Positions 2,987 through 28,142 of a stretch of DNA of 28,142 nucleotides are shown here, in pieces; position 1 is the stretch's first letter; each line of letters opens with the position of its first letter. This stretch comes from a virus. The stretch covers positions 1 to 28,142 of the IMG/VR virus record IMGVR_UViG_3300035670_001031. One strand, written 5' to 3'. Under the pieces are notes generated by a model. The model did no database searches. It had not been told where the DNA came from and saw only the letters and a list, made by a program, of their open reading frames with translations. A program made the position numbers and the translations under genes.

Positions 2987-3819
2987 TGGCCGGAAAGCCG
3001 GGATCGTTTGACGAAATGCACCCCGACGCCCCTTCGGGTGGCGGGGCCTTCGTGGTGCCACCGGGCACGAACCCCTACGCGGGGTACGTGTACTACAACA
3101 ACAAGAACGGCAAGACCCCCAAGGGCAACTCAATCGACCTTGTGAGCAACCTGCCTATGCGGTGGCGCAACAACGCCCAGAGCAGCCCGCGAGACGCGAA
3201 GCAACTCAACAAGTTGTTCAAGTACGTCTCGGAGGCCACCGGCCAGCAGATCAACAGTTTCGACGAGGCCGTGAAGGTCTGGCAGAAGGCTGTTGCGAAG
3301 GCCGAGGCGTCTTGGACCGGCACCCGTGGCGGCAAGAAGGGCAAGCCGACAACGCCGTGGGACGAGTTGCTGATCGCCAAGCGGGATCGTCAGGCGGGCA
3401 TCGCCAACGACCTTTCGGTCGGCCCGGAAGGCGGCAGGGGCGGAACACAGCGCTCCGTCGTCAAGTCGATTGACGAGATTAGCGACGGCACCGCGTGGAC
3501 CTTCATCGACACCGCCGCGCGCCAGATGCTTGGCCGCGCAGCGACCGAGAGCGAGGTCCGGCGATTCGTTTCCAAGGCCCATGATATTGCCGCCCGCAAT
3601 CCGAACATCAGTACCGTAACCACGGTTGATGACGGCGCTGGCGGCGGCAGCCAGAAAACCAAGACGAAGCAGGGCGCAGGGCAGGGCGACTACGAACTTG
3701 AGGCCCGCAACAACATGGCCGCGTCACCCGAGGCCGGGGCCTTTCAGGCCGCGACCACCTACTTCAAGGCTCTGCAAGACGCGCTCGGTAGCCAAGCGGG
3801 CCTGAGGGCGAACTTCTAG
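2986..3819 (+). CDS. Putative virion structural protein (277 aa)
   Basis: ATG start at 2986 shares one base with the preceding TGA and follows a G-rich GGGGGTG ribosome-binding stretch. The N-terminus is rich in Gly and Pro; the middle is basic and helical. Residues 175-205 carry LGRAATESEVRRFV followed by a NPNISTVTT segment, and the C-terminus has AFQAATTYFKALQDAL. This arrangement recalls a group of actinophage structural proteins found in series near internal virion proteins. No enzyme motif is seen. Its stop TAG overlaps the next GTG (TAGTG). The role is inferred to be a minor head or ejection component from position only. Confidence 0.7.
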   Translation: MAGKPGSFDEMHPDAPSGGGAFVVPPGTNPYAGYVYYNNKNGKTPKGNSIDLVSNLPMRWRNNAQSSPRDAKQLNKLFKYVSEATGQQINSFDEAVKVWQKAVAKAEASWTGTRGGKKGKPTTPWDELLIAKRDRQAGIANDLSVGPEGGRGGTQRSVVKSIDEISDGTAWTFIDTAARQMLGRAATESEVRRFVSKAHDIAARNPNISTVTTVDDGAGGGSQKTKTKQGAGQGDYELEARNNMAASPEAGAFQAATTYFKALQDALGSQAGLRANF

Positions 3820-5186
3820 TGGCGACTAACCCTCTGGTCCCGTACGCGGAAATCGCTACGGGCGATACCGGCAGGTCCCTCGGTGGCCCGATTGGGGTCG
3901 GCTCATACGACCCGTTCGGCCCGCCGGGACTGTCGCAGCGTGCGTGGGACCTTATGCACCCGAACGAGCAGGCCGACTACATCGCGCAGATCGTGACGGG
4001 CGGCGGGTCTGACTCCGACGACGACGATGGCGGGAACTTCAATCCGGGCGCTCGTCTCGACCCCGGCCAGATTGAGCAGGGCTACTCGCCCTACCCCTCG
4101 ACGCCGGGGCCGCTGGCACCCCCGCCCACTTCCACCACTCGCGCTCCGGGCAAGCCTCGCCCTGAGCCACCGCGGCTCAAGAAGCCGAAGGATGGCATCG
4201 GTTACCGCTGGTCCGAACTCGGCAAGGGCATCGTTGATCGCGCGGGCAGCCTGTTCGGTGGGCCGAAGGACGCTGGCGACCAGCACTTCCGCAACTTCTA
4301 CAGCGGCCCCGAGGACCCCAATCCGCCCGAGGTCCCGGTCAGCAATGACCAAACGGGCATCCGTGCTGGCGTTTACCGTGCCGACGCGCAGGCGGCGTCG
4401 CGCTTCTTCGCCGCGCCGGACGTGGCCTATGACCCGGATCAGACCAAGTGGCGATACGCCTCGGACGATCCGGTCAAGACCCACGCCATCCTGAAAACCG
4501 TCACCGACGCAATCGGGCGCTCTGGCGGCGAGGACGTTATCCGCCGCGCCTACGCGGAGGCAGGCATCGACCTTGGCTCGGACCTGTCTGACTTCCAGTT
4601 GGCCCGCGGCCAGCGTGTGCCCATCGACAAGGTCCGCCCCGGCGACCTCGTGGGCTGGGGCGCGTCCTACGGGGGCCAGTTCGGTCAGAACGTAGGAATC
4701 GTGCTCGGGAACGGGTTCGTCCTCAAGCAGCCCACCTTCGGGATCGAGGGCCAAGCCCGCGTGACGGACCTCGACTCCCTCCCCAAGGGGAGCGCCTACG
4801 GGGTGCGAGTCGCCAATCCGGCTCACAAGATGACGCCAAATGAGCGCGTCGGCGTCGATGTTGTGAACGGGGCGACAGACGCCATCCGCCGCATTCTCGG
4901 TGGCGTGATGGGTGACATTTCCCCGCGCAGCAGCAAGGGCTCCACTGGCACGGCGGGCTCCAAGCCCCGCACCCGGACAACCACGACCGCACGCCGGACC
5001 CCGGCGAGTGACAGTCAGGCCGCGCGCAACGCCGCGCGCTCGACAGCCAAGGCCGCATCACGGGCACTGGGTGGACTCAGTGGTGGCAAGAGCAAGCCAC
5101 GGTCCTCGGCCAAGCCGAAGCCCAAGGCGACGAAGCCGAAGGCCCGGTCAAAGCCAAAGCCGAAATCAAGGTCGCGCAAACGATGA
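3819..5186 (+). CDS. Structural protein with degenerate NlpC/P60-like domain and histone-like basic tail
   Basis: GTG start overlaps the upstream stop by one base. Domains in order: a Gly/Pro/Asp-rich N-terminus with an acidic SDSDDDD run (residues 64-70); a Pro-rich linker (80-125); a segment at about 230-335 that matches the NlpC/P60 layout, with AYAEAGIDL, then RPGDLVGWG (273-281), then NVGIVLGNG (291-299); and a C-terminal tail (365-455) rich in Lys, Arg, Pro, Ala and Ser with KPKPKATKPKARSK. The catalytic Cys expected before AYAEAG is replaced (GGEDVIRRAY), and the His expected in HVGIYLG is Asn291. The protein contains no cysteine at all, so it cannot be a normal NlpC/P60 peptidase. The tail resembles histone H1/AlgP-type DNA-binding tails. 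It is probably a virion protein binding packaged DNA or cell-wall material. Confidence 0.75.
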   Translation: MATNPLVPYAEIATGDTGRSLGGPIGVGSYDPFGPPGLSQRAWDLMHPNEQADYIAQIVTGGGSDSDDDDGGNFNPGARLDPGQIEQGYSPYPSTPGPLAPPPTSTTRAPGKPRPEPPRLKKPKDGIGYRWSELGKGIVDRAGSLFGGPKDAGDQHFRNFYSGPEDPNPPEVPVSNDQTGIRAGVYRADAQAASRFFAAPDVAYDPDQTKWRYASDDPVKTHAILKTVTDAIGRSGGEDVIRRAYAEAGIDLGSDLSDFQLARGQRVPIDKVRPGDLVGWGASYGGQFGQNVGIVLGNGFVLKQPTFGIEGQARVTDLDSLPKGSAYGVRVANPAHKMTPNERVGVDVVNGATDAIRRILGGVMGDISPRSSKGSTGTAGSKPRTRTTTTARRTPASDSQAARNAARSTAKAASRALGGLSGGKSKPRSSAKPKPKATKPKARSKPKPKSRSRKR

Positions 5187-6170: not shown

Positions 6171-6983
6171 GTGGCACAAGAGAGCGCATTTGAGCGCCTG
6201 CGTGACCTGTTCCGGTCGTACGGACTTCCAGACGCGGACGACATTATCGGCGTGATCCGTCAGGGCGTTCAGGACGACGTGGGCGAGGACATTATTCAGG
6301 TCCGCCTACAGGACACGGCTTCGTGGAAGCAGCGCTTCGCGGGCAACGAGACACGTCGCCAGAAGGGCATGAATGTCCTGAGCGTGGCCGAGTACCTGTC
6401 GCAGGAGAACCAGTACAAGGCGGTGCTCCGCAACGCAGGCCTACCCATTGGCTTCCATGACGAGGCGAGCGACTTCGCAAATCTGATCGGCAACAGTGTG
6501 AGTGTGGCCGAACTACAGGACAGGGTGAACATTGCTACGGACATTATCCACCGCGAGGATTCTGCGGTCCTTGACCAACTTGCTGCCCGCGGCGTCTCCA
6601 AGGACCTCTTTCTTGCCCACACGCTTGACCCTGAGCGTGCGGCTCCGCTTATCAAGAAGCAACAAAACAGCATCCTGATTGGCGCTGCCGCGCAGCGCGC
6701 CGGGGCTGGTGCCTCAATCGCGCAGGCCGACAGGCTGGCCGAGCGTGGCATCGGTGAGGATCAGGCGATTCAGGGATTCGGCCAGATCAACGACTTCCTT
6801 GGCGACACGGACAAGTTGGGCGATATCTACGGAGTTGACTACTCGTCCGATGACGCCATTGGCGAAGTCTTTGAGGGTGGCTCGGGCGCCAAGCGCAAGC
6901 GCCTCGCGTCCACCGAGCGCTCCGCTTTTGGTGGACAGACGACCTTCGGCGTAGCCCAGAGGGAAACAGGCGGCTCGTACTGA
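6171..6983 (+). CDS. Putative minor virion protein (270 aa)
   Basis: GTG start at 6171 follows a GAGAGG site about 10 bases upstream. The N-terminus (FRSYGLPDADDIIGVIRQGV, then a segment containing RLQDTASWKQRFAGNE) and the phrase SVSVAELQDRVNIA belong to a recognisable pattern of short phage structural proteins with long amphipathic helices: YGL, a run of IRLQET-type residues, KQRFPA and a later segment of EYL type. There are no catalytic motifs. The C-terminus is Gly/Ser-rich with a basic AKRKRLAS patch. It is the last gene before the 400-bp accessory gap. Function is inferred from context as a partner of the preceding virion proteins. Confidence 0.7.
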   Translation: MAQESAFERLRDLFRSYGLPDADDIIGVIRQGVQDDVGEDIIQVRLQDTASWKQRFAGNETRRQKGMNVLSVAEYLSQENQYKAVLRNAGLPIGFHDEASDFANLIGNSVSVAELQDRVNIATDIIHREDSAVLDQLAARGVSKDLFLAHTLDPERAAPLIKKQQNSILIGAAAQRAGAGASIAQADRLAERGIGEDQAIQGFGQINDFLGDTDKLGDIYGVDYSSDDAIGEVFEGGSGAKRKRLASTERSAFGGQTTFGVAQRETGGSY

Positions 6984-7006
6984 GTTAGGCCGTCAAATCC
7001 ACCTTT

Positions 7007-7159
7007 TTAGCACAGGTAGAAGTTGGTGCAGCCCGGTCCATCCTCCGGGTTCACCTGACTGTGCGCCGGGGGTGGGCGGTCGCTCTCGCCCTCAATGCCA
7101 GCGTCAGCGAGCAGGCCAGCGGCAAACAGAGCCGCGACGATGCCGATGAGCCAACGCAT
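7007..7159 (-). CDS. Small secreted-type peptide (50 aa), reverse-oriented inside the late operon
   Basis: This 50-codon ORF runs against the surrounding structural genes. It starts with ATG at 7159 and ends with TAA at 7009-7007. The N-terminus MRWLIGIVAALFAAGLLADA is a textbook signal peptide: a positive charge, a hydrophobic core and an A-D-A type cleavage site near residue 20. The mature part is short, acidic and Pro-rich, and ends with two cysteines in CTNFYLC, the last residue being Cys50. There is no lipobox cysteine. A good promoter (TTTACG, 17 bp, TAGAAT) ends six bases before the ATG, so the transcript would be leaderless, which is common in actinobacteria. The gene may be an early or lysogeny-type accessory gene acting at the cell surface. 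No family is recognised. Confidence 0.6.
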   Translation of the reverse strand: MRWLIGIVAALFAAGLLADAGIEGESDRPPPAHSQVNPEDGPGCTNFYLC

Positions 7160-7165
7160 CTTTCA

Positions 7166-7194
7166 ATTCTAGACAACTGAATACGGGCCGTAAA
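7166..7194 (-). promoter_or_regulatory. Minus-strand sigma-70-type promoter for the small secreted peptide
   Basis: On the minus strand, TTTACG (plus positions 7189-7194) is separated by 17 bp from TAGAAT (7166-7171). These match the consensus at 4/6 and 5/6 positions. The expected start point falls at or next to the ATG at 7159, predicting a leaderless mRNA. The -35 box lies inside the first bases of the tmRNA-like RNA encoded on the other strand, so both cannot be occupied freely at once. Confidence 0.5.
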
Positions 7195-7264
7195 TGGTTT
7201 CGACAGTCGGGAAGGCCCCGCGAGGGACCCCGGCTGGATCAGGGTTCGATCCCCTGACGGTCCA
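7185..7264 (+). ncRNA. Minimal tmRNA-like RNA: tRNA-like domain only, no tag ORF
   Basis: The 80 bases fold as a tmRNA tRNA-like domain. Acceptor stem GGGCCGT (7185-7191) pairs fully with ACGGTCC (7257-7263), with a G3-U70 wobble, the alanyl-tRNA synthetase identity element, and A73 at 7264. Next comes AAATGGTTTCGACAG, the hallmark D-loop sequence of tmRNA (general form NNANGGUUUCGACN). AGTCGGG (7205-7211) pairs with CCCGGCT (7229-7235) as a P2-like helix closed by a short inner hairpin. GGA then precedes a perfect T-arm: CAGGG (7240-7244), loop TTCGATC, CCCTG (7252-7256). In normal tmRNA about 250-300 nt with the tag ORF and pseudoknots sit where this hairpin is. CCA is not encoded. The pairing is complete although the stem bases differ from the bacterial tmRNAs I know, which argues for a maintained RNA. 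An anti-tmRNA decoy or alanine-charged tRNA mimic is possible. Confidence 0.75.
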
Positions 7265-7271
7265 CTCCCGC

Positions 7272-7294
7272 CTCACCCCTAAGGGGGTGGTGAG
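7272..7294 (+). other. Stable hairpin 3' of the tmRNA-like RNA
   Basis: CTCACC (7272-7277) pairs with GGTGAG (7289-7294), and the C-rich and G-rich inner bases around TAAG extend the stem. No T-run follows, so it is not a classical terminator. It could mark the processing end of the small RNA, protect it, or attenuate transcription before the scaffold and capsid genes. Confidence 0.45.
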
Positions 7295-7386
7295 ACGGCG
7301 TATCCGATCCCCCCAGCACAAGCAGCCCCGCCTACCTCCGGGCGGGTGTCTCGGTGTGCGACCACATTGGAAATGGAGCGTGTCGC

Positions 7387-7875
7387 ATGAGCGACTACGA
7401 GTACGACGACGACTACGACTACGACAGCAACTCCGGTAGCGGACTGCGGAAACAGTTGGAAAAGGCCCTCAAGAGGGTCGAAGCCGCTGAGAAGAAAGCA
7501 GCCGAAGCCGAGGGTCGGTTGAAGCAGAAGGAAGCGTCCGAAGCGCTCACGGCAAAGGGTTACCCGGCTGCTGTTGCACGTCTCGCCATCAAGGATGGCG
7601 TGGACATTGCCAACAAGGAAGCCTTGGAGAACTGGCTCACCGAGAACGGTGACGTGTTCGCAAAGCCCGGTGCCACCCCACAGAACCAAGAGAACGAGCA
7701 GGAACCTGATCCTGCGGACGAGATTCCCGAGGGGGTCGAGGCCGCGTACCGGGGCGTCGGCAGCATCCATGCTGCTGCGTCACCCGCGATGGTGAATCGA
7801 ATGGATGCCGCACTTGCGGGCATTCCCGCCGATGCCACCAAGGAGCAGGTCCGCGAAGCGCTCAAGGGTCTGTGA
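7387..7875 (+). CDS. Scaffold-like protein upstream of the capsid gene
   Basis: I chose ATG at 7387 because GGAG lies 8 bases upstream; the frame is open to an upstream ATG at 7354 that lacks a site. The 162-residue protein begins with an Asp/Tyr run (DYEYDDDYDYD), continues with a heptad-like Lys/Glu/Ala helix (about residues 20-50, LEKALKRVEAAEKKAAEAE) and is acidic overall. Position directly before the major capsid gene, size, acidity and coiled coil are all typical of phage scaffolding proteins, which bind the coat protein during procapsid assembly and then leave. The evidence is context and composition; no sequence family is confirmed. Confidence 0.65.
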   Translation: MSDYEYDDDYDYDSNSGSGLRKQLEKALKRVEAAEKKAAEAEGRLKQKEASEALTAKGYPAAVARLAIKDGVDIANKEALENWLTENGDVFAKPGATPQNQENEQEPDPADEIPEGVEAAYRGVGSIHAAASPAMVNRMDAALAGIPADATKEQVREALKGL

Positions 7876-7919
7876 TTTCCCACACCCACCAAGCAACACG
7901 CTAACTGAAAGGAGAGGTC

Positions 7920-8846
7920 ATGGCTGACGCCTATACCTCAACTACTGCTCAGGCGGCGCTTGTTCAGGCGGCTGTGGATCGCTATGTGCGCGCTGATCTG
8001 CGCCACTCGCCGCTGCTCCGCTCCATGGCGGATACGCGGCCCGTACAGGTCAACATGCCCGGCTCCAGTGTGAAGTTGTACACCTACCCGGACCTCGCCG
8101 TTGCGACCACGCCTCTGAACGAGACGACCGACCCGGACGCGGTTGCCCTTGGCAACCCGACCAGCACCGAAGTCACTCTGAATGAGTACGGTGTTGCGAC
8201 CATTTCGACCATCCGCCTGCGCCAGACGGCGTTCTCGGATATCGACCCGAACCAGATGGATCAGGTTGCGTACAACATGCGCAACACGCTGGACACTCTG
8301 GTGCGTGACGAACTGTCCGGTGGTACGAACGTGTACTACTCGGGCAACGCGACCACGACGAACACCGTCGATGCGACCGACACGCTTGCGTCTAACGACG
8401 TTCGCAAGGCGGTCACCAAGTTGCGGCGTAACGCCGCGCAGGGTCGTCGGGCCGATCTTTACGCGGCCCTCGTCCACCCGGATGTTTCGTTCGACCTCCG
8501 CAAGGAGTCGGATGCAGGCGGCTGGCACGAGGCGCACAAGTACGCCGCACCGGACCTCATCTGGCCCGGTGAAATCGGTGTCTACCAAGGCGCGTACTTC
8601 ATCGAGTCCGCTCGCATGAAGGTCGCTGCTGATGGTGCTGCTGGCGCGAACGTCTACCGCTCGCTGTTCCTCGGTAAGGAGGCGCTGGCTGAGGCCGTCG
8701 CCGTTGAGCCGGGTGCGCGTGTCGGTGTCGTGCCGGACAAGTTGAACCGTTTCTACCCGCTGGGTTGGTACGGCTTCCTCGGCTGGAAGCGTTTCCGTGA
8801 GGCCGCACTCGTGCGCGTCGAATCGGGATCGTCCTTCGTCGCCTGA
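7920..8846 (+). CDS. Major capsid protein, N4-gp56-like
   Basis: A strong AAGGAGAGG site precedes the ATG, consistent with very high expression. The 308-residue protein has an N-terminal helical arm (AALVQAAVDRYVRADLRHSP), then the beta-rich layout of N4-gp56/P22-type coat proteins: a segment with PGSSVKLYTYPDL, LNETTDPD, TLNEYGVATISTIRL, then a long helix (DQVAYNMRNTLDTLVRDEL) followed by a GGTNVYYSG strand. The C-terminal part (YQGAYFIESARMKVA, NVYRSLFLGKEALAEAV) is the expected strand and helix core. It lies directly after the scaffold-like gene. Confidence as capsid protein is high; the family assignment is from remembered motif pattern and is less certain. Confidence 0.85.
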   Translation: MADAYTSTTAQAALVQAAVDRYVRADLRHSPLLRSMADTRPVQVNMPGSSVKLYTYPDLAVATTPLNETTDPDAVALGNPTSTEVTLNEYGVATISTIRLRQTAFSDIDPNQMDQVAYNMRNTLDTLVRDELSGGTNVYYSGNATTTNTVDATDTLASNDVRKAVTKLRRNAAQGRRADLYAALVHPDVSFDLRKESDAGGWHEAHKYAAPDLIWPGEIGVYQGAYFIESARMKVAADGAAGANVYRSLFLGKEALAEAVAVEPGARVGVVPDKLNRFYPLGWYGFLGWKRFREAALVRVESGSSFVA

Positions 8847-8884
8847 GCCTGACTGGCTCTAATCCCTGACGGGGTTCTCTGGCT

Positions 8885-8902
8885 CCCCGCCGCAAGGCGG
8901 GG
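8885..8902 (+). other. GC-rich GCAA-tetraloop hairpin after the capsid gene
   Basis: CCCCGCC (8885-8891), loop GCAA and GGCGGGG (8896-8902) form a perfect 7-bp stem with a GNRA tetraloop. It lies in the 92-base gap after the capsid stop. There is no T-run, so it is more likely an mRNA-stabilising or partial-termination element that raises capsid mRNA relative to downstream genes. Confidence 0.5.
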
Positions 8903-8938
8903 GGTCGGGGTGTCTCGTCATGCCCGAAAGGTTCCCCA

Positions 8939-10096
8939 TTGCCGTCATTCCGTGGCAAGCCCGCCTGTGAGTGTCTAGCCGAATCTCTGCCACTGGTGGA
9001 GAAGGTGATGCTCGCCAAGGGCCTCATCCGTCATTCGCTGGACGTGTACCAGATCATCGGCGGCGCGTCCGCGTCCGCTGGCACACACCGCACGGGTGGC
9101 GCCGTTGACACGGCGCAGTATTCCGACGCGCAACTGCGCGTCTGGCGCGACATGGGCTACGACGCTGGCTGGCGTCGGCGCACGTCGCAGGGGTTCGACC
9201 TCGACCACGCCCACGCGGTCGCTCGCGGGTGCCCGCACAACGGTCCCGCCCGCTACCAGATCACCGCGGTTGACGCTGGCTACAACGGCCTCGGCGCGAA
9301 CGGTCGCGGTGGCCGCGACGACGGACCTCGCCCCCTGTCGGGCCGCACGGTCCAGCAGGGCATCGAGTGGGCTCGCATCTACCTCAAAGAGGCCAAGCCC
9401 CGGACGCCGACCGAACTCAAGATCGTCAACTGGAACGTCGCCTCCCCCAAGTATTTCTCGCCGTGGGCCCCCCGCAAGGAAGGCATCGGGACCGTGTTGC
9501 GCGGTCTGGCGCCCGACGTGCTGGTGACGCAGGAGACGCACTTCTCCTACATGACCGCCGACATTCTGGCGGCGCTCGGCCCGAACTACGCGCACGTCTC
9601 GTCGCCGGTCGGCACGGACATGTTCTACCGCCACGACCTGCTGGCCGGGGTCAACCCGCCGTTCAAGGAATACCCGCTGAACATTCAGGGCCGCGCCGCT
9701 GGCGTCCTGCACTTGCAGCACCGCGAGTCGGGCAAACGGGTGGCGGTCATCGGGTCGCACGCCCCGGCGCTGGTGCCGTCCTATCGGACGGTCTTCGGCG
9801 GCAGGTTCGCTCGGCTGATCGCGGACGTTGATGACGCCCGGATCATCTGCGCCGACTGGAACACGGCGAAGGACAGCAGGAGCCCCCGCAAGGAGATTCG
9901 GGCGCTCGGCTTCCGTAGCGAGCGGGACCAAGTGGCCATCGCCAACGAGGGCTCGGACGAGTTCCCCGGCAAGGGCTGGCTGTCCGGCATCTACACCAAG
10001 CCTTCCGAGGCGCGGATCACTGGCGGGCAGTTGCACATCACGTCGCCAAGGCTGTCTGACCACCGCCCAATCTCTGTCCGGGTGCAAATCCCTTGA
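8939..10096 (+). CDS. M15-like zinc peptidase domain fused to an EEP-family nuclease/phosphatase domain
   Basis: TTG start at 8939 follows GAAAGG at about 7 bases; ATG at 9008 is an alternative. Residues about 40-95 carry THRTGGAVD (His50, Asp57), fitting the SxHxxGxAxD zinc motif of M15/VanY peptidases, and FDLDHAHAV (His90, His92) for the second half of the site. Residues 160-385 are an endonuclease/exonuclease/phosphatase (EEP) domain with all its usual motifs: NWNV (Asn166), TQETH (Glu199), GSHAP (His274), ADWN (Asp306, Asn308) and LSDHRP (Asp374, His375). Both active sites look intact. M15 enzymes cut peptidoglycan cross-bridges; EEP enzymes cut nucleic acids or phosphoesters. The pairing in one late phage protein is unusual. 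It might be a virion-borne or lysis enzyme that opens the wall and also attacks nucleic acid or a phosphate polymer such as teichoic acid. Confidence 0.75.
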   Translation: MPSFRGKPACECLAESLPLVEKVMLAKGLIRHSLDVYQIIGGASASAGTHRTGGAVDTAQYSDAQLRVWRDMGYDAGWRRRTSQGFDLDHAHAVARGCPHNGPARYQITAVDAGYNGLGANGRGGRDDGPRPLSGRTVQQGIEWARIYLKEAKPRTPTELKIVNWNVASPKYFSPWAPRKEGIGTVLRGLAPDVLVTQETHFSYMTADILAALGPNYAHVSSPVGTDMFYRHDLLAGVNPPFKEYPLNIQGRAAGVLHLQHRESGKRVAVIGSHAPALVPSYRTVFGGRFARLIADVDDARIICADWNTAKDSRSPRKEIRALGFRSERDQVAIANEGSDEFPGKGWLSGIYTKPSEARITGGQLHITSPRLSDHRPISVRVQIP

Positions 10097-10263
10097 GCAC
10101 CCTCCCACAGTTCCTCACATCCATCTTTTTGTCCGTCTCCGTGGCCCTTCTCGGTCACCACCACTGGACCGGATTGCACGGTGCGAACTTCAACCCCGAC
10201 GTGCAGTTGGACACATCGCAGGTAATCGACAGGACGGGAGCGCATGACCTACTCGGCCTCTGA
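10093..10263 (+). CDS. Small membrane ORF (56 aa), possible holin-like
   Basis: TTG at 10093 overlaps the preceding stop (TTGA), a coupling pattern used elsewhere here. The 56-residue product has one hydrophobic segment (FLTSIFLSVSVALLG, residues 7-21), then HHHW and a polar C-terminus ending in HDLLGL. It overlaps the next gene by 20 bases. Position between two cell-wall-active enzymes would fit a small holin or spanin-type helper, but this is inference. The gene could also be a chance ORF, since the next gene has its own ribosome-binding site (GGGAG) within it. Confidence 0.45.
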   Translation: MSTLPQFLTSIFLSVSVALLGHHHWTGLHGANFNPDVQLDTSQVIDRTGAHDLLGL

Positions 10264-11101
10264 CTTCGCGGTCGGCAAGACCGGCCCGCAGTTCCCTTGG
10301 CTGGAAGGGCGCCTGACCGCCCACGGCCATCCGTCCACCCACATCCTCGACTCGCTCAAGAGCCGCGTCCAGCGCTTCCAGTGGAAGCAGGGCTGGAAGG
10401 GCACCGACGCTGACGGGTTCGTTGGCCCGGAGACTTTGCGGCGGCTCACCGCCGACCCAGTGGTCGTGACCCCGCCGCCCACCGCGGACGACATTGACCT
10501 GACGCCATGGAAGATCACCCTTCCGGTTGGCAAGCCGACCGAGTATTTCCCGGCCAAGTTTTTTGCGCCGTACTTCTACCCGAGGGACCGCGCCATCGTC
10601 TTCCGCGCGCCGGTAGACGGCGCCACCACGTCCAACTCGGGCTACCCCCGCAGCGAACTGCGCGAAATGATCGCCGGGAAACTGGCGGCGTGGTCCTCGC
10701 GCTCTGGCACCCACACCCTCGCGGGCTCGTGCGCCGTCACCCAACTTCCAGACGGCAAGCGCGAGTTGGTCTTCGCCCAGATTCACGACGCCAAGGACGA
10801 CGTGGTGATGCTGCTCGTCAGCGGCGACAGGGTGTACGTCTCCGAGTCGCTCGGCAAGGGCAAGGGCTCCAAGCGGCATTTGCTGTTCTCTGGCTACCGA
10901 CTGGGCAGCCGCATCGACCACACGATCACGGCCACCGCTGACGGTATCCGCGTGGTCGTGAACGGCTACGCCGTCACCATCGCCCGCGTCTGCGACGGCG
11001 CCTACTTCAAGGCTGGCTGCTACTCGCAGGCGAACGAGAGCAACGGGTCCGGCTACGCCGAGGTCGTGTACTTCGCCCTGCGCGTCAGTCACAAGGCATG
11101 A
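10244..11101 (+). CDS. Peptidoglycan-binding domain fused to PL7 (alginate-lyase-2 type) polysaccharide lyase
   Basis: ATG at 10244 follows GGGAG. Residues about 30-70 are a PG_binding_1 repeat (RVQRFQWKQGWKGTDADGFV, then GPETLRRL). After a Pro-rich linker (75-82), residues 85-285 form a PL7/alginate_lyase2 jelly roll with its diagnostic motifs: RSELRE (Arg136), QIH (Gln179, His181) and YFKAGCY (Tyr254, Tyr260). PL7 enzymes cleave uronic-acid polymers such as alginate by beta-elimination. In a phage the role would be degradation of capsule or exopolysaccharide, with the wall-binding module holding the enzyme at the surface. It could be a virion depolymerase or a released lysis aid. The stop overlaps the next ATG (ATGA). 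Confidence 0.82.
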   Translation: MTYSASDFAVGKTGPQFPWLEGRLTAHGHPSTHILDSLKSRVQRFQWKQGWKGTDADGFVGPETLRRLTADPVVVTPPPTADDIDLTPWKITLPVGKPTEYFPAKFFAPYFYPRDRAIVFRAPVDGATTSNSGYPRSELREMIAGKLAAWSSRSGTHTLAGSCAVTQLPDGKRELVFAQIHDAKDDVVMLLVSGDRVYVSESLGKGKGSKRHLLFSGYRLGSRIDHTITATADGIRVVVNGYAVTIARVCDGAYFKAGCYSQANESNGSGYAEVVYFALRVSHKA

Positions 11102-13842: not shown

Positions 13843-15690
13843 GTGGTTGACGAAGAAGTTGTCGGCCCGATCCAAGGGCCTATTAGTGCGCTGGGCTCGA
13901 ATCAGTCGGCCCGCTATCAGCCTTCCAGCGCCGCCTACACGGTCGCCCTTGCTGGGCTGCCGTTCCAGAAGTGGGTCGAGGACGAGCATCCGTATGCGCG
14001 TCAGACGGCTGAGTTCCGTCGCCAGCAGATCGACCAGTCCTCTCAGCCGGGGGATCAGTCTCTTGTCGGCTTTTGGACCCGTGGACAGTTGTCGTTCCAT
14101 CATGGTGCCGGGGTCAACTTTTATGAGTTGACGGACGGGGAGACGGTGTTGAACCGTTTCACGAGTTCGGTTGGGTGTGACGTGTGGACGCCTGGGCGGG
14201 TGACGGTGCGGCCGAAGGTGTCCAACATTTACGGCAATGCCACCCGTGACGTTGTGCTGTTCGACGGCAAGATCGCGCTACGCCGCTCCACCGGGGCGGT
14301 AGAGACGGTCACCTACACGGGCACGTCCGCTTCGCTGCCACTCACCGCTGGCGGTGTCACCACGTCGATCACGTCTGACGGCGTGAACTTGTACGCCACG
14401 AACGCGGGCAAGATCGACAAGTGCGCTCCGGGTGGCTCGTTCACGACGTTGTGGACGCATCACACGGGCGGCAAGACGTTCCAGTATGTGTGGTGGGCGA
14501 AGTCGCGTCTGTGGGCGCTCGACTCTGACGGCAACCTGTTCACCTTGTCTACGGCTGGTGGCACTACTGCCGCTGGCGACATTCTGTGGGCTGCGCCGTA
14601 TTCGGCTACGGCTCGCTGGTCGTTGACCGAATCGGAAGGGGCTGTGTTCCTTGCTGTCGGTGACGCCATCTTCGCGGCGTCCATTGACGGCTCGGCGGCT
14701 ACGCCCGTTGTGGGTGCGCCACTGACGGTGGCGCGTGTTGGCGCACAGGAAACCATCGGCGCCATCGGCGCCTATCTTGGCTACCTGACGGTCGCCTCGT
14801 CTGCCGGTGTCCGTGTCGGTCGCATCGGTGACAACGGGCTCCTGCTGGGTGACCTGATCTACGAATGGTCCGGGCAATACTGCACGCGGCTGGCGTTCAA
14901 GGGCTCGCGGGTGTTGGTCACCACGTCCACGGCCACCGAAACCGCGCAGGTCGAGTTGGACTTGCTGGAACAGGTGTCAGACCTGCAACCGGCATGGGCT
15001 CAGATTCGTACGGCTGCCACGTCCGGCACAGACAGCCACGGCTCTCTTGTCCTGCCTGACGGTCGCACCGCCTACTTCCGTGGCTCTGGCATCTGGCTGA
15101 CCGACGAGACACTTGGCACGTCGTCGGGGACTATCCGCACTGGTTTCCACCGTTTCGGCACCCTTGAGTTGAAGGATTTCCGCACCTTGTCGGTGTTTGT
15201 GCAGGGCGCAGCCGGAACTGTGGGTGTGGCGTTGGTGGACCGTGACGGGGACACGCACCCGCTGGTGACTCTCGGTACGCAACATTTCGGTTCGAACGAG
15301 GTTGCGTTCAACCTCGCCGAACCCATCGACTGCATCGGGTTGGAGTTCACCATCACGTCCGAGGACGATGTGGCACCGACGTTGTTGGGCTATCAGATTC
15401 GGGCGCTTCCTGCGCCCACTCGGCAGCGGTTGATCCAGATTCCGCTCATGTGTTTCGACACTGAGCATGTCGGCAACACTGAACACGGCTATCGGGGCTG
15501 GGCTCGGGATCGCCTGTTTGAACTTGAGGAAATGGAACGCACGTCGGGCGCGATTACGTATCAGGATTTCGAGCTGGATGAGACGGCAGTTGTCGCCATT
15601 GAAGATGTTCGGTTCCAGTCCAAGACGCCCATGAAGGGCGGCAACGGATTCGGAGGGCTCATCGTCGTCACCTTGAGAAAGGTGACTTGA
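13843..15690 (+). CDS. Nozzle-like/minor tail protein (beta-propeller-like, 615 aa)
   Basis: GTG at 13843 lies three bases after the previous stop. The N-terminus is polar with a Gln-rich helix; residues about 100-380 consist of repeated short strands with Gly/Asp turns (SITSDGVNLYATNAGKID, YVWWAKSRLWALDSDGNLF, VFLAVGDAIFAASIDGS), the signature of a propeller. The C-terminal 200 residues form another beta domain with a jelly-roll look (FRTLSVFVQGAAGTVGVALV) and end in a DFELDETAVVAIEDVRFQS segment. Similar layouts occur in tail nozzle (gp12/TubB-like) proteins of podoviruses and in some siphovirus minor tail proteins. Placement after the fibre supports a distal tail role. Confidence 0.65.
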   Translation: MVDEEVVGPIQGPISALGSNQSARYQPSSAAYTVALAGLPFQKWVEDEHPYARQTAEFRRQQIDQSSQPGDQSLVGFWTRGQLSFHHGAGVNFYELTDGETVLNRFTSSVGCDVWTPGRVTVRPKVSNIYGNATRDVVLFDGKIALRRSTGAVETVTYTGTSASLPLTAGGVTTSITSDGVNLYATNAGKIDKCAPGGSFTTLWTHHTGGKTFQYVWWAKSRLWALDSDGNLFTLSTAGGTTAAGDILWAAPYSATARWSLTESEGAVFLAVGDAIFAASIDGSAATPVVGAPLTVARVGAQETIGAIGAYLGYLTVASSAGVRVGRIGDNGLLLGDLIYEWSGQYCTRLAFKGSRVLVTTSTATETAQVELDLLEQVSDLQPAWAQIRTAATSGTDSHGSLVLPDGRTAYFRGSGIWLTDETLGTSSGTIRTGFHRFGTLELKDFRTLSVFVQGAAGTVGVALVDRDGDTHPLVTLGTQHFGSNEVAFNLAEPIDCIGLEFTITSEDDVAPTLLGYQIRALPAPTRQRLIQIPLMCFDTEHVGNTEHGYRGWARDRLFELEEMERTSGAITYQDFELDETAVVAIEDVRFQSKTPMKGGNGFGGLIVVTLRKVT

Positions 15691-15959
15691 TGGAAGTCAT
15701 CATCGCCGCCCTCGTCACCACTATCGGTGGCGTGATCGTCGCCCTGATCGGGCTCGTCCGCAAGGACGTGAAGCAGGCCGTGGCTAACACGCTGCCGGTG
15801 TCGAACGGGTTCACCCGTCACGTAATGGACGAGTTTGAGAAGGCCAAGGACCGCGACGAGGCCATGGAGAAGAAGTTCGACGATCACCTTGCGTGGTCAC
15901 AAGAGGAAACGCGGCGCCTGTGGGCTGCCGTGTTGTACAGAAATGAGACGACAAGATGA
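15690..15959 (+). CDS. Membrane-anchored coiled-coil protein, holin-like (89 aa)
   Basis: I chose ATG at 15690, which overlaps the previous TGA by one base and has AAAGGTGA five bases upstream; TTG at 15687 is an alternative. Residues 3-22 are a transmembrane segment (IIAALVTTIGGVIVALIGLV), followed by a basic RKDVK turn and a charged helix (FEKAKDRDEAMEKKFDDHL). One N-terminal membrane segment with a charged tail suits a holin, antiholin or spanin-like protein. It begins a run of three overlapping membrane-protein genes at the end of the late operon. Confidence 0.65.
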   Translation: MEVIIAALVTTIGGVIVALIGLVRKDVKQAVANTLPVSNGFTRHVMDEFEKAKDRDEAMEKKFDDHLAWSQEETRRLWAAVLYRNETTR

Positions 15960-27023: not shown

Positions 27024-27487
27024 GCCGCCACCTTCTGTCGCTCCCGGTATCGCTTGTCGCTTTCGGCCCGACAGATTCGGCAGACTCGGCCACGGCCCCG
27101 CGATGAATAGCGGAGATTCTCGCCGCTGAGTGGATGCCCCTGCGGGCAATGTGTCTTGACGCGATTTGCGGCACCCGTCCCACCCGAGCGCAGCGAATTA
27201 ACAAGCGCTGTCACGAGTTCTCCGTGCCATGGATTCACGCAGGGTGGGTTCTTGCATAGGTGGTCGAATGTCAGCCCATCGGGGATTTCCCCGCGGAAGA
27301 ACTCCCACGCGAAGCGGTGGGCCGCAACTTTGCGACCGTTCACGCGAAGCCGCGTATAGCCCTTCGGGCTCCGGGCCACGTGGCGCACCCAGCACCCGTT
27401 CTCATCCTCGACGCACGGCGCCAAGAGTCGGTTAATTGCGGGGGTCGTCCGCGAGAGGCGGTCCCGGTCGAAGTCTCCGTCAACCAC
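27020..27487 (-). CDS. Second HNH endonuclease with zinc ribbon
   Basis: GTG at 27487 overlaps the preceding TAG by one base and has GGAAGGAAA at good distance. The 155-residue protein shows GCWVRH, AHRFAWEFFRGEIPDG, then DHLCKNPPCVNPWHGELV (Asp75-His76, Cys78, Cys83, Asn85, His88) and a C-terminal CPQGH and VCRICRAESDKRY zinc site. It has the same architecture as the HNH gene at 19.4 kb but is clearly diverged. It probably acts as a mobile or DNA-nicking nuclease. Confidence 0.87.
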   Translation of the reverse strand: MVDGDFDRDRLSRTTPAINRLLAPCVEDENGCWVRHVARSPKGYTRLRVNGRKVAAHRFAWEFFRGEIPDGLTFDHLCKNPPCVNPWHGELVTALVNSLRSGGTGAANRVKTHCPQGHPLSGENLRYSSRGRGRVCRICRAESDKRYRERQKVAA

Positions 27488-28142
27488 TAAAAGTTTCCTT
27501 CCGCGACCTGCAAACAGGTCAGGCCGAGGTCCCGCCACATTTCGACCACCTGATTCCGGTCATCCAGCACGTACAGCACGTTGAACCTGTCGCGGATGTG
27601 CTTGTCGAACAGTTCCCGCTTGACGATGGCATCCTTACGACGGTCGCCCCCGGGGCGCATGTACAACTCGAAGTTGCTCCATACGTGCTTGCGCAGCCAG
27701 TCCTCGGTCACTTCACGACAGGACTCGTCACGGCCCGAGCAGAACACCAACTTGGCCCCAGACTCCACAGCGCTCCACACAGCCTGAATGACCGGAGCGT
27801 TCGGGTGGTCCATGTGCGCCTTGGATGCGTCGTAGATACCCCGACCCTCCCAGCGCAGGGCCACGGTCCCGTCAATGTCCACGATGACAGCGCGCGGATT
27901 CTTGCGGTCTGGGACGTACTTCTCGCCCCCATGGCCCTCATCCTCAATGGTGGATACGGGCAGGAACTCGCCCTTCGGGAGGTATTTCCTCGCCATGTCC
28001 CGAATGACGCTCTCATCCACTTTTTTGTCACGCTCAGCGTTACGTTTGAGCGCTTCGTCAAGGTCGATGGGGAACTCTCGGACCTCCACCGTGGCGTCAC
28101 CCCACGCCTGCGCGAGCCGCTTCCACTGGCGGATGTACGACG
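27487..28142 (-). CDS. Polynucleotide kinase 3'-phosphatase (Pnkp-like), 5' part cut by window edge
   Basis: The frame is open past the window end (codons before the GTG at 28089 read SYIRQWKRLAQAWGDAT), so the gene is partial. The visible 217 residues begin with the end of a P-loop kinase domain (VEVREFPIDLDEALKRNAER, DESVIRDMARKYLP), then a HAD-type phosphatase: IVDIDGTVALRW (Asp88, Asp90), LVFCSGRDE, a MRPGGDRRKDAIVKREL segment (Lys174) and VLYVLDDRNQ (Asp193, Asp194). This is the layout of T4-type Pnkp, which adds a 5'-phosphate and removes a 3'-phosphate so that a ligase can seal RNA. The matching ligase is at 22.3-22.9 kb. Confidence 0.87.
   Translation of the reverse strand, partial: SYIRQWKRLAQAWGDATVEVREFPIDLDEALKRNAERDKKVDESVIRDMARKYLPKGEFLPVSTIEDEGHGGEKYVPDRKNPRAVIVDIDGTVALRWEGRGIYDASKAHMDHPNAPVIQAVWSAVESGAKLVFCSGRDESCREVTEDWLRKHVWSNFELYMRPGGDRRKDAIVKRELFDKHIRDRFNVLYVLDDRNQVVEMWRDLGLTCLQVAEGNF

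Follow-up and report, generated by a model that had tools for sequence, protein, structure and literature searches.

What does a phage do with a protein in which an M15-type cell-wall peptidase is followed by a domain of the EEP (Exo_endo_phos) superfamily, and which is encoded next to the major capsid gene? We addressed this question on a window that corresponds to the whole IMG/VR virus record IMGVR_UViG_3300035670_001031, 28,142 nt in length.

The M15-EEP gene and its neighbourhood

The gene spans positions 8939 to 10096 on the plus strand, which also carries the capsid gene, the PGBD-PL7 gene and the two membrane ORFs described below, and encodes 385 amino acids in a single open frame without internal stop. 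The TTG start agrees with the FRGxxxCxC N-terminus of the homologues, and a Shine-Dalgarno-like GAAAGG can be recognised in the sequence 7 nt 5′ of it, at positions 8926 to 8931. Residues 1–152 (8939 to 9394) make up the predicted LAS/M15-type metallopeptidase domain and residues ~159–385 (9413 to 10093) the EEP domain.

The adjoining gene (7920 to 8846), which the preliminary description of this locus had taken for a capsid gene, does encode the major capsid protein (phrog_1357, E=3e-74; 48% identity to the capsid of Streptomyces phage Dennebes). Judging from the capsid and the neighbouring genes, the window phage is near the Streptomyces podoviruses of the Beephvirinae. The gene order in the window is capsid, M15-EEP gene, a gene for a protein with a peptidoglycan-binding domain (PGBD) and a PL7-type alginate lyase 2 domain (10244 to 11101; PF01471 E=0.0045 and PF08787 E=1.5e-37, respectively), and an SU10-type adaptor. 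In related Streptomyces podoviruses the slot from capsid to adaptor is occupied by variable genes, and in Streptomyces phage Abafar it contains a tailspike-type protein with a K1-lyase C-terminal domain.

No family-matched holin gene lies adjacent to the M15-EEP gene in the window, and neither of the two membrane ORFs present has a holin family match. One of them, at 10093 to 10263, overlaps the M15-EEP stop with its start and encodes 56 amino acids with one hydrophobic segment; family searches gave no match for it, and it is possibly a membrane lysis partner. The other, at 15687 to 15959, encodes a 90-aa protein with an N-terminal membrane segment that belongs to a PHROG of unknown function; as Dennebes has an annotated holin in a comparable place, this product is a candidate holin by its position.

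Three further features of the window were recorded. An NlpC/P60-like region in a virion-region protein (3819 to 5186; E=1.9e-4, slightly under the gathering score) is another wall hydrolase candidate, and a similar region is annotated in Abafar. The product of the gene at 27487 to 28089 contains a HAD_PNKP domain (polynucleotide kinase phosphatase; E=3.5e-51). Finally, Dennebes and Abafar have a large tRNA cluster ahead of their scaffold gene; the 370-base gap at 6983 to 7354 is too small for such a cluster.

The two halves of the protein

Relatives of the N-terminal domain surfaced only through pattern and profile searches: the first homologues were retrieved with a degenerate DNA pattern for HxHxV..GCPH, and the subsequent profile searches yielded 39 and 50 viral loci. 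These relatives are short, resemble endolysins and differ in their C-terminal modules. Modelled alone, residues 1–152 reached an AF2 pLDDT of 94.7. The top rows returned by VIA-align for this model were almost all LAS-fold proteins, with Hedgehog-N as the best (Z 6.9, a moderate value; rmsd 2.3, 90 aligned residues), followed by MepA (Z 6.0), Ply500 (5.6), BaLdcB (5.5) and LysB4 (5.5). Searches of the PDB with the model by Foldseek alone gave no significant match, and neither an N-domain-heavy profile nor the single sequence matched a PDB entry. None of 20 family members matched Pfam M15 or any other Pfam family. On the model, then, the N-domain appears to be an M15-like fold whose family is not covered by Pfam. 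In 22 aligned relatives the metal-site motif H-x6-D plus HxH (H50, D57, H90 and H92) is invariant; the domain would be expected to bind zinc and cut peptidoglycan peptides. The same LAS/M15-like domain was also observed inside tape measure proteins at four loci (L037, L044, L047 and L048).

The C-terminal half matched PF03372 with E=9e-6 (26 bits against a gathering cut-off of 24.5), and a profile of eight phage EEP domains matched solved EEP structures, down to E=2e-12. The solved structures nearest to this profile are mixed and comprise a putative EEP protein, TDP2, a mannosyl-6-phosphatase, ExoIII and a sphingomyelinase. In the full-length AF2 model the EEP half was predicted at low confidence, because only three full-length rows were available in the alignment, and the fold call consequently rests on fold search and profile. 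The Foldseek and VIA lists for this half consisted mostly of EEP structures (APE1, neutral sphingomyelinase, DNase I, TDP2); the superposition with APE1 gave Z 8.8 and an rmsd of 3.4 over 116 residues.

Across 28 aligned EEP sequences, N166, E199, H274, D306 and N308 each have at most one exception, and D374/H375 are present in nearly all. Nearly all of the 28 also have the Asp that belongs to the (I/L)D motif of EEP domains, but the window copy has Ser349-Gly350 in its place, and the full-length homologue at locus L011 carries an Asp one position later. In APE1 the counterpart of the motif Asp is presumably Asp283, the residue by which the catalytic His is positioned, and loss of the Asp may weaken or alter the EEP activity of the window copy. 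Since the remaining features are present, the domain is still placed in the EEP superfamily. We found no sequence signal in it that tells a nuclease from a lipid or glycan phosphoesterase.

The preliminary description had reported an M15-type peptidase fused to an intact EEP domain in one late protein. The presence of both domains stands, supported by fold prediction on either side and by PF03372, whereas "intact" has to be qualified for the EEP half in view of Ser349-Gly350. The residues it had named, His50/Asp57/His90/His92 and Glu199/Asp306/Asn308/Asp374/His375, are all present, and N166 and H274 can be added to them.

Recurrence of the peptidase–EEP pairing

Third-position GC content is high in both halves of the gene (GC3 0.82 in the N-terminal and 0.90 in the C-terminal half) and both are read in one frame, so that nothing points to two genes merged by a frameshift. 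Moreover, locus L011 encodes a full-length homologue with 40% identity across both halves (E=5e-87), which excludes a chance join of two genes; further M15-EEP fusions were found at L012, L163, L168 and L170. The window sequence is known from a metagenomic contig only and an identical second copy was not found, but with the same architecture on these five independent contigs a sequencing or assembly artefact, which the preliminary description had named as a possible refutation, has a negligible probability.

In three of these relatives the fusion gene is directly followed by a holin gene, located 10 bp downstream in L011 (phrog_8269, E=7e-12), 38 bp in L163 (phrog_9752, E=3e-14) and 4 bp in L168 (phrog_9752, E=2e-14). 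The EEP halves are diverse, with a second type in L012 and L170 and further types in L163 and L168. In L013, L015, L026 and L188 the N-domain endolysin has a separate EEP gene next to it; among these, only the L188 product scores above the gathering cut-off of Pfam (1.7e-9), with values between 0.004 and 0.14 for the remaining three. The EEP profile was built without L163, L168, L170, L013, L015, L026 and L188, and found all seven. The 70 N-domain loci, 501 kb of sequence in total, contain 10 EEP ORFs, and none of these is more than 561 bp away from the N-domain ORF. Related uncultured actinobacterial phages thus repeatedly carry a peptidase and an EEP domain, either fused or encoded by adjacent genes.

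The N-domain is also found in bacterial genomes, being present in 59 of 392 Propionibacteriales genomes at a looser cut-off and in one genome in a phylum-wide search that was stricter than the former. In prophage L099 a single protein (ORF 7867-10059) combines an EEP domain, an M15-type domain and a GH25 lysozyme (E=2e-29 for GH25); a holin-like membrane gene follows. The Nocardioides locus L053, of which L164 seems to be a viral-contig copy (same ORF lengths and scores), contains an endolysin gene, an r1t holin gene (E=1e-20) and an EEP-like gene, and in L092 and L134 an EEP-like gene lies between or beside endolysin and holin; in all three the EEP assignment is by motif only. A bacterial-EEP profile did not separate L053, L092 and L086 from shuffled sequences, and these three therefore stay at the motif level.

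Some loci have other arrangements. In L134 (2157-3739) the endolysin is a canonical-looking M15 enzyme of another lineage, followed by the EEP-like gene and a holin-like gene. The tail of the N-domain endolysin of L086 (G230:C1:21871-22521, minus strand) aligned continuously with its EEP-like relative L131 after rotation, the score rising from 45.8 to 53.9 bits, which suggests a circularly permuted EEP-like domain. In addition, a chromosomal Nocardioidaceae gene (L150/L156, G392:C1:2361165) joins an M23-type peptidase, a PG-binding region and an EEP domain, the M23 and PG-binding assignments of L150 having been made by reading the sequence.

A search of 50,697 deposited phage genomes brought up no protein comparable to the whole M15-EEP protein or to either half, and single-sequence patterns run against viral contigs and genome contigs found nothing. 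The literature search did not find an EEP endolysin, and none was found in two actinophage endolysin surveys (PMC9671378, PMC3314691), in agreement with the earlier remark that the combination is not known from characterised phages. Both enzyme superfamilies are known; what appears to be new is that they are combined and that the pairing recurs in lysis modules.

The closest known systems share one part or the other. M15/LAS endolysins (Ply500 and LysB4, PDB 2vo9 and 6akv; the M15-type LysA of a Gordonia phage, PMC9671378) have the same LAS fold with H-x6-D and HxH, and are alike as modular lysis enzymes and, in the relatives of the window protein, in the nearness of a holin. The window protein differs from them in that its N-domain belongs to a family without Pfam match, the close subfamily of which has a CxC motif at the N-terminus, and its C-terminal module is an EEP enzyme rather than a wall-binding domain. 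Members of the EEP superfamily (PF03372; PDB 3g6s, TDP2, ExoIII, the B. cereus sphingomyelinase and the mannosyl-6-phosphatase BT3783) have the common fold and the N/E/H/DxN/DH set, but the domain of the window copy is part of a phage protein that also contains a wall peptidase, and the (I/L)D Asp is missing. The GDPD tail lysins of Lactobacillus phage Ld17 and of enterococcal phages likewise combine wall hydrolase modules with an envelope phosphodiesterase (PMC10194240), although GDPD is a different phosphodiesterase fold and the module belongs to the tail and not to a lysis cassette. Similarly, the LysA/LysB systems of mycobacteriophages comprise modular actinophage endolysins and attack more than one envelope layer, but LysB is a separate esterase, and the text of the LysA survey does not mention a nuclease or phosphatase domain (PMC3314691).

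Possible roles of the EEP domain in lysis

Because the relatives directly precede holins, the best-placed role of the protein, as judged from gene order, would be that of a lysis-cassette endolysin and not of a capsid-associated oddity. Its two domains, the conservation of the fusion and the holin genes that directly follow the relatives are the established part of this reading. Beyond it, we tentatively propose, at somewhat less than an even chance, a two-enzyme endolysin in which the EEP domain takes the wall-binding slot and hydrolyses phosphoesters, an envelope polymer or lipid being a likelier substrate than DNA. In such a model the protein of this actinobacterial podovirus would be made late together with the structural genes and be held in the cytoplasm until the holin opens the membrane. 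The zinc peptidase half would then cleave peptide bonds of the peptidoglycan, while the EEP half, in the usual place of a cell-wall-binding domain, would hydrolyse phosphoester bonds, most probably in a teichoic-acid-like wall polymer, in the phosphodiester linkage of such a polymer to peptidoglycan, or in a phospholipid; both envelope layers would fail together.

A role in lysis is argued for by the adjoining holin genes and by the linkage of EEP domains to more than one wall-hydrolase class. The same linkage is better explained by an envelope substrate than by the possibility that the EEP domain breaks down the host DNA or RNA that spills out at lysis, thereby cutting viscosity or freeing progeny. 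This possibility, which we regard as a serious rival although less likely, draws on the nucleases APE1, DNase I, TDP2 and ExoIII among the Foldseek and VIA matches, and on TDP2 and ExoIII among the best PDB profile matches; the matches, however, also include sphingomyelinase and mannosyl-6-phosphatase. It would moreover be costly for the phage if a nuclease built up next to its unpackaged DNA, as endolysins do accumulate in the cytoplasm, and no inhibitor gene was seen. There is also a precedent in phages for a wall hydrolase combined with an envelope phosphodiesterase, though of another fold, namely the GDPD domains on tail lysins (PMC10194240), and it likewise favours an envelope substrate. 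Of the three functions offered in the preliminary description, cutting a phosphate-containing envelope polymer would be the best fit, with nucleic acid degradation at lysis as its main rival. Exclusion of rival phage DNA, the third, found no support, as neither an immunity partner nor early expression was seen.

Two other roles would do without an enzyme acting at lysis on a second layer. The position of the gene between capsid and adaptor, beside the PGBD-PL7 gene and in the slot where Abafar has its K1-lyase-containing protein, could point to a tail or internal virion protein that opens peptidoglycan and another envelope layer at entry, and the occurrence of the N-domain within tape measure proteins is in line with this. 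We rate such a role, likewise a serious rival for the window copy, as less probable than the nuclease reading; against it, free-standing relatives of the same architecture adjoin holins and the 385 residues contain no obvious trimerisation or tail-attachment region. It is still harder to see the EEP domain as a non-catalytic binding module in place of a cell-wall-binding domain. It does have the position that is taken by other C-terminal domains in related endolysins, and the window copy lacks one canonical Asp, but N, E, H, D, N and DH are retained in divergent relatives with 15–25% identity, and stand-alone EEP cassette genes would lack a reason to bind alone; we accord this idea a very small probability.

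Returning to the two-enzyme endolysin, its extension to the group is proposed with slightly more reserve: EEP phosphoesterases might be a recurrent second lysis activity of actinobacterial phages, directed against a phosphate-containing envelope layer and supplied either as a fusion or by a separate gene of the cassette. In the current view, endolysins require peptidoglycan hydrolases and binding domains, to which the esterase LysB is added in mycolate hosts. If our proposal is true, an endolysin-linked phosphoesterase in many uncultured actinophages would represent a new enzymatic step of lysis, and the EEP domain would indicate which wall polymer blocks release and provide new enzybiotic parts; if it is instead a nuclease, the question would become how the phage shields its own DNA. 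The recurring pairing of peptidase and EEP domain, seen at the level of sequence, suggests an unrecognised second activity in the bursting of the host.
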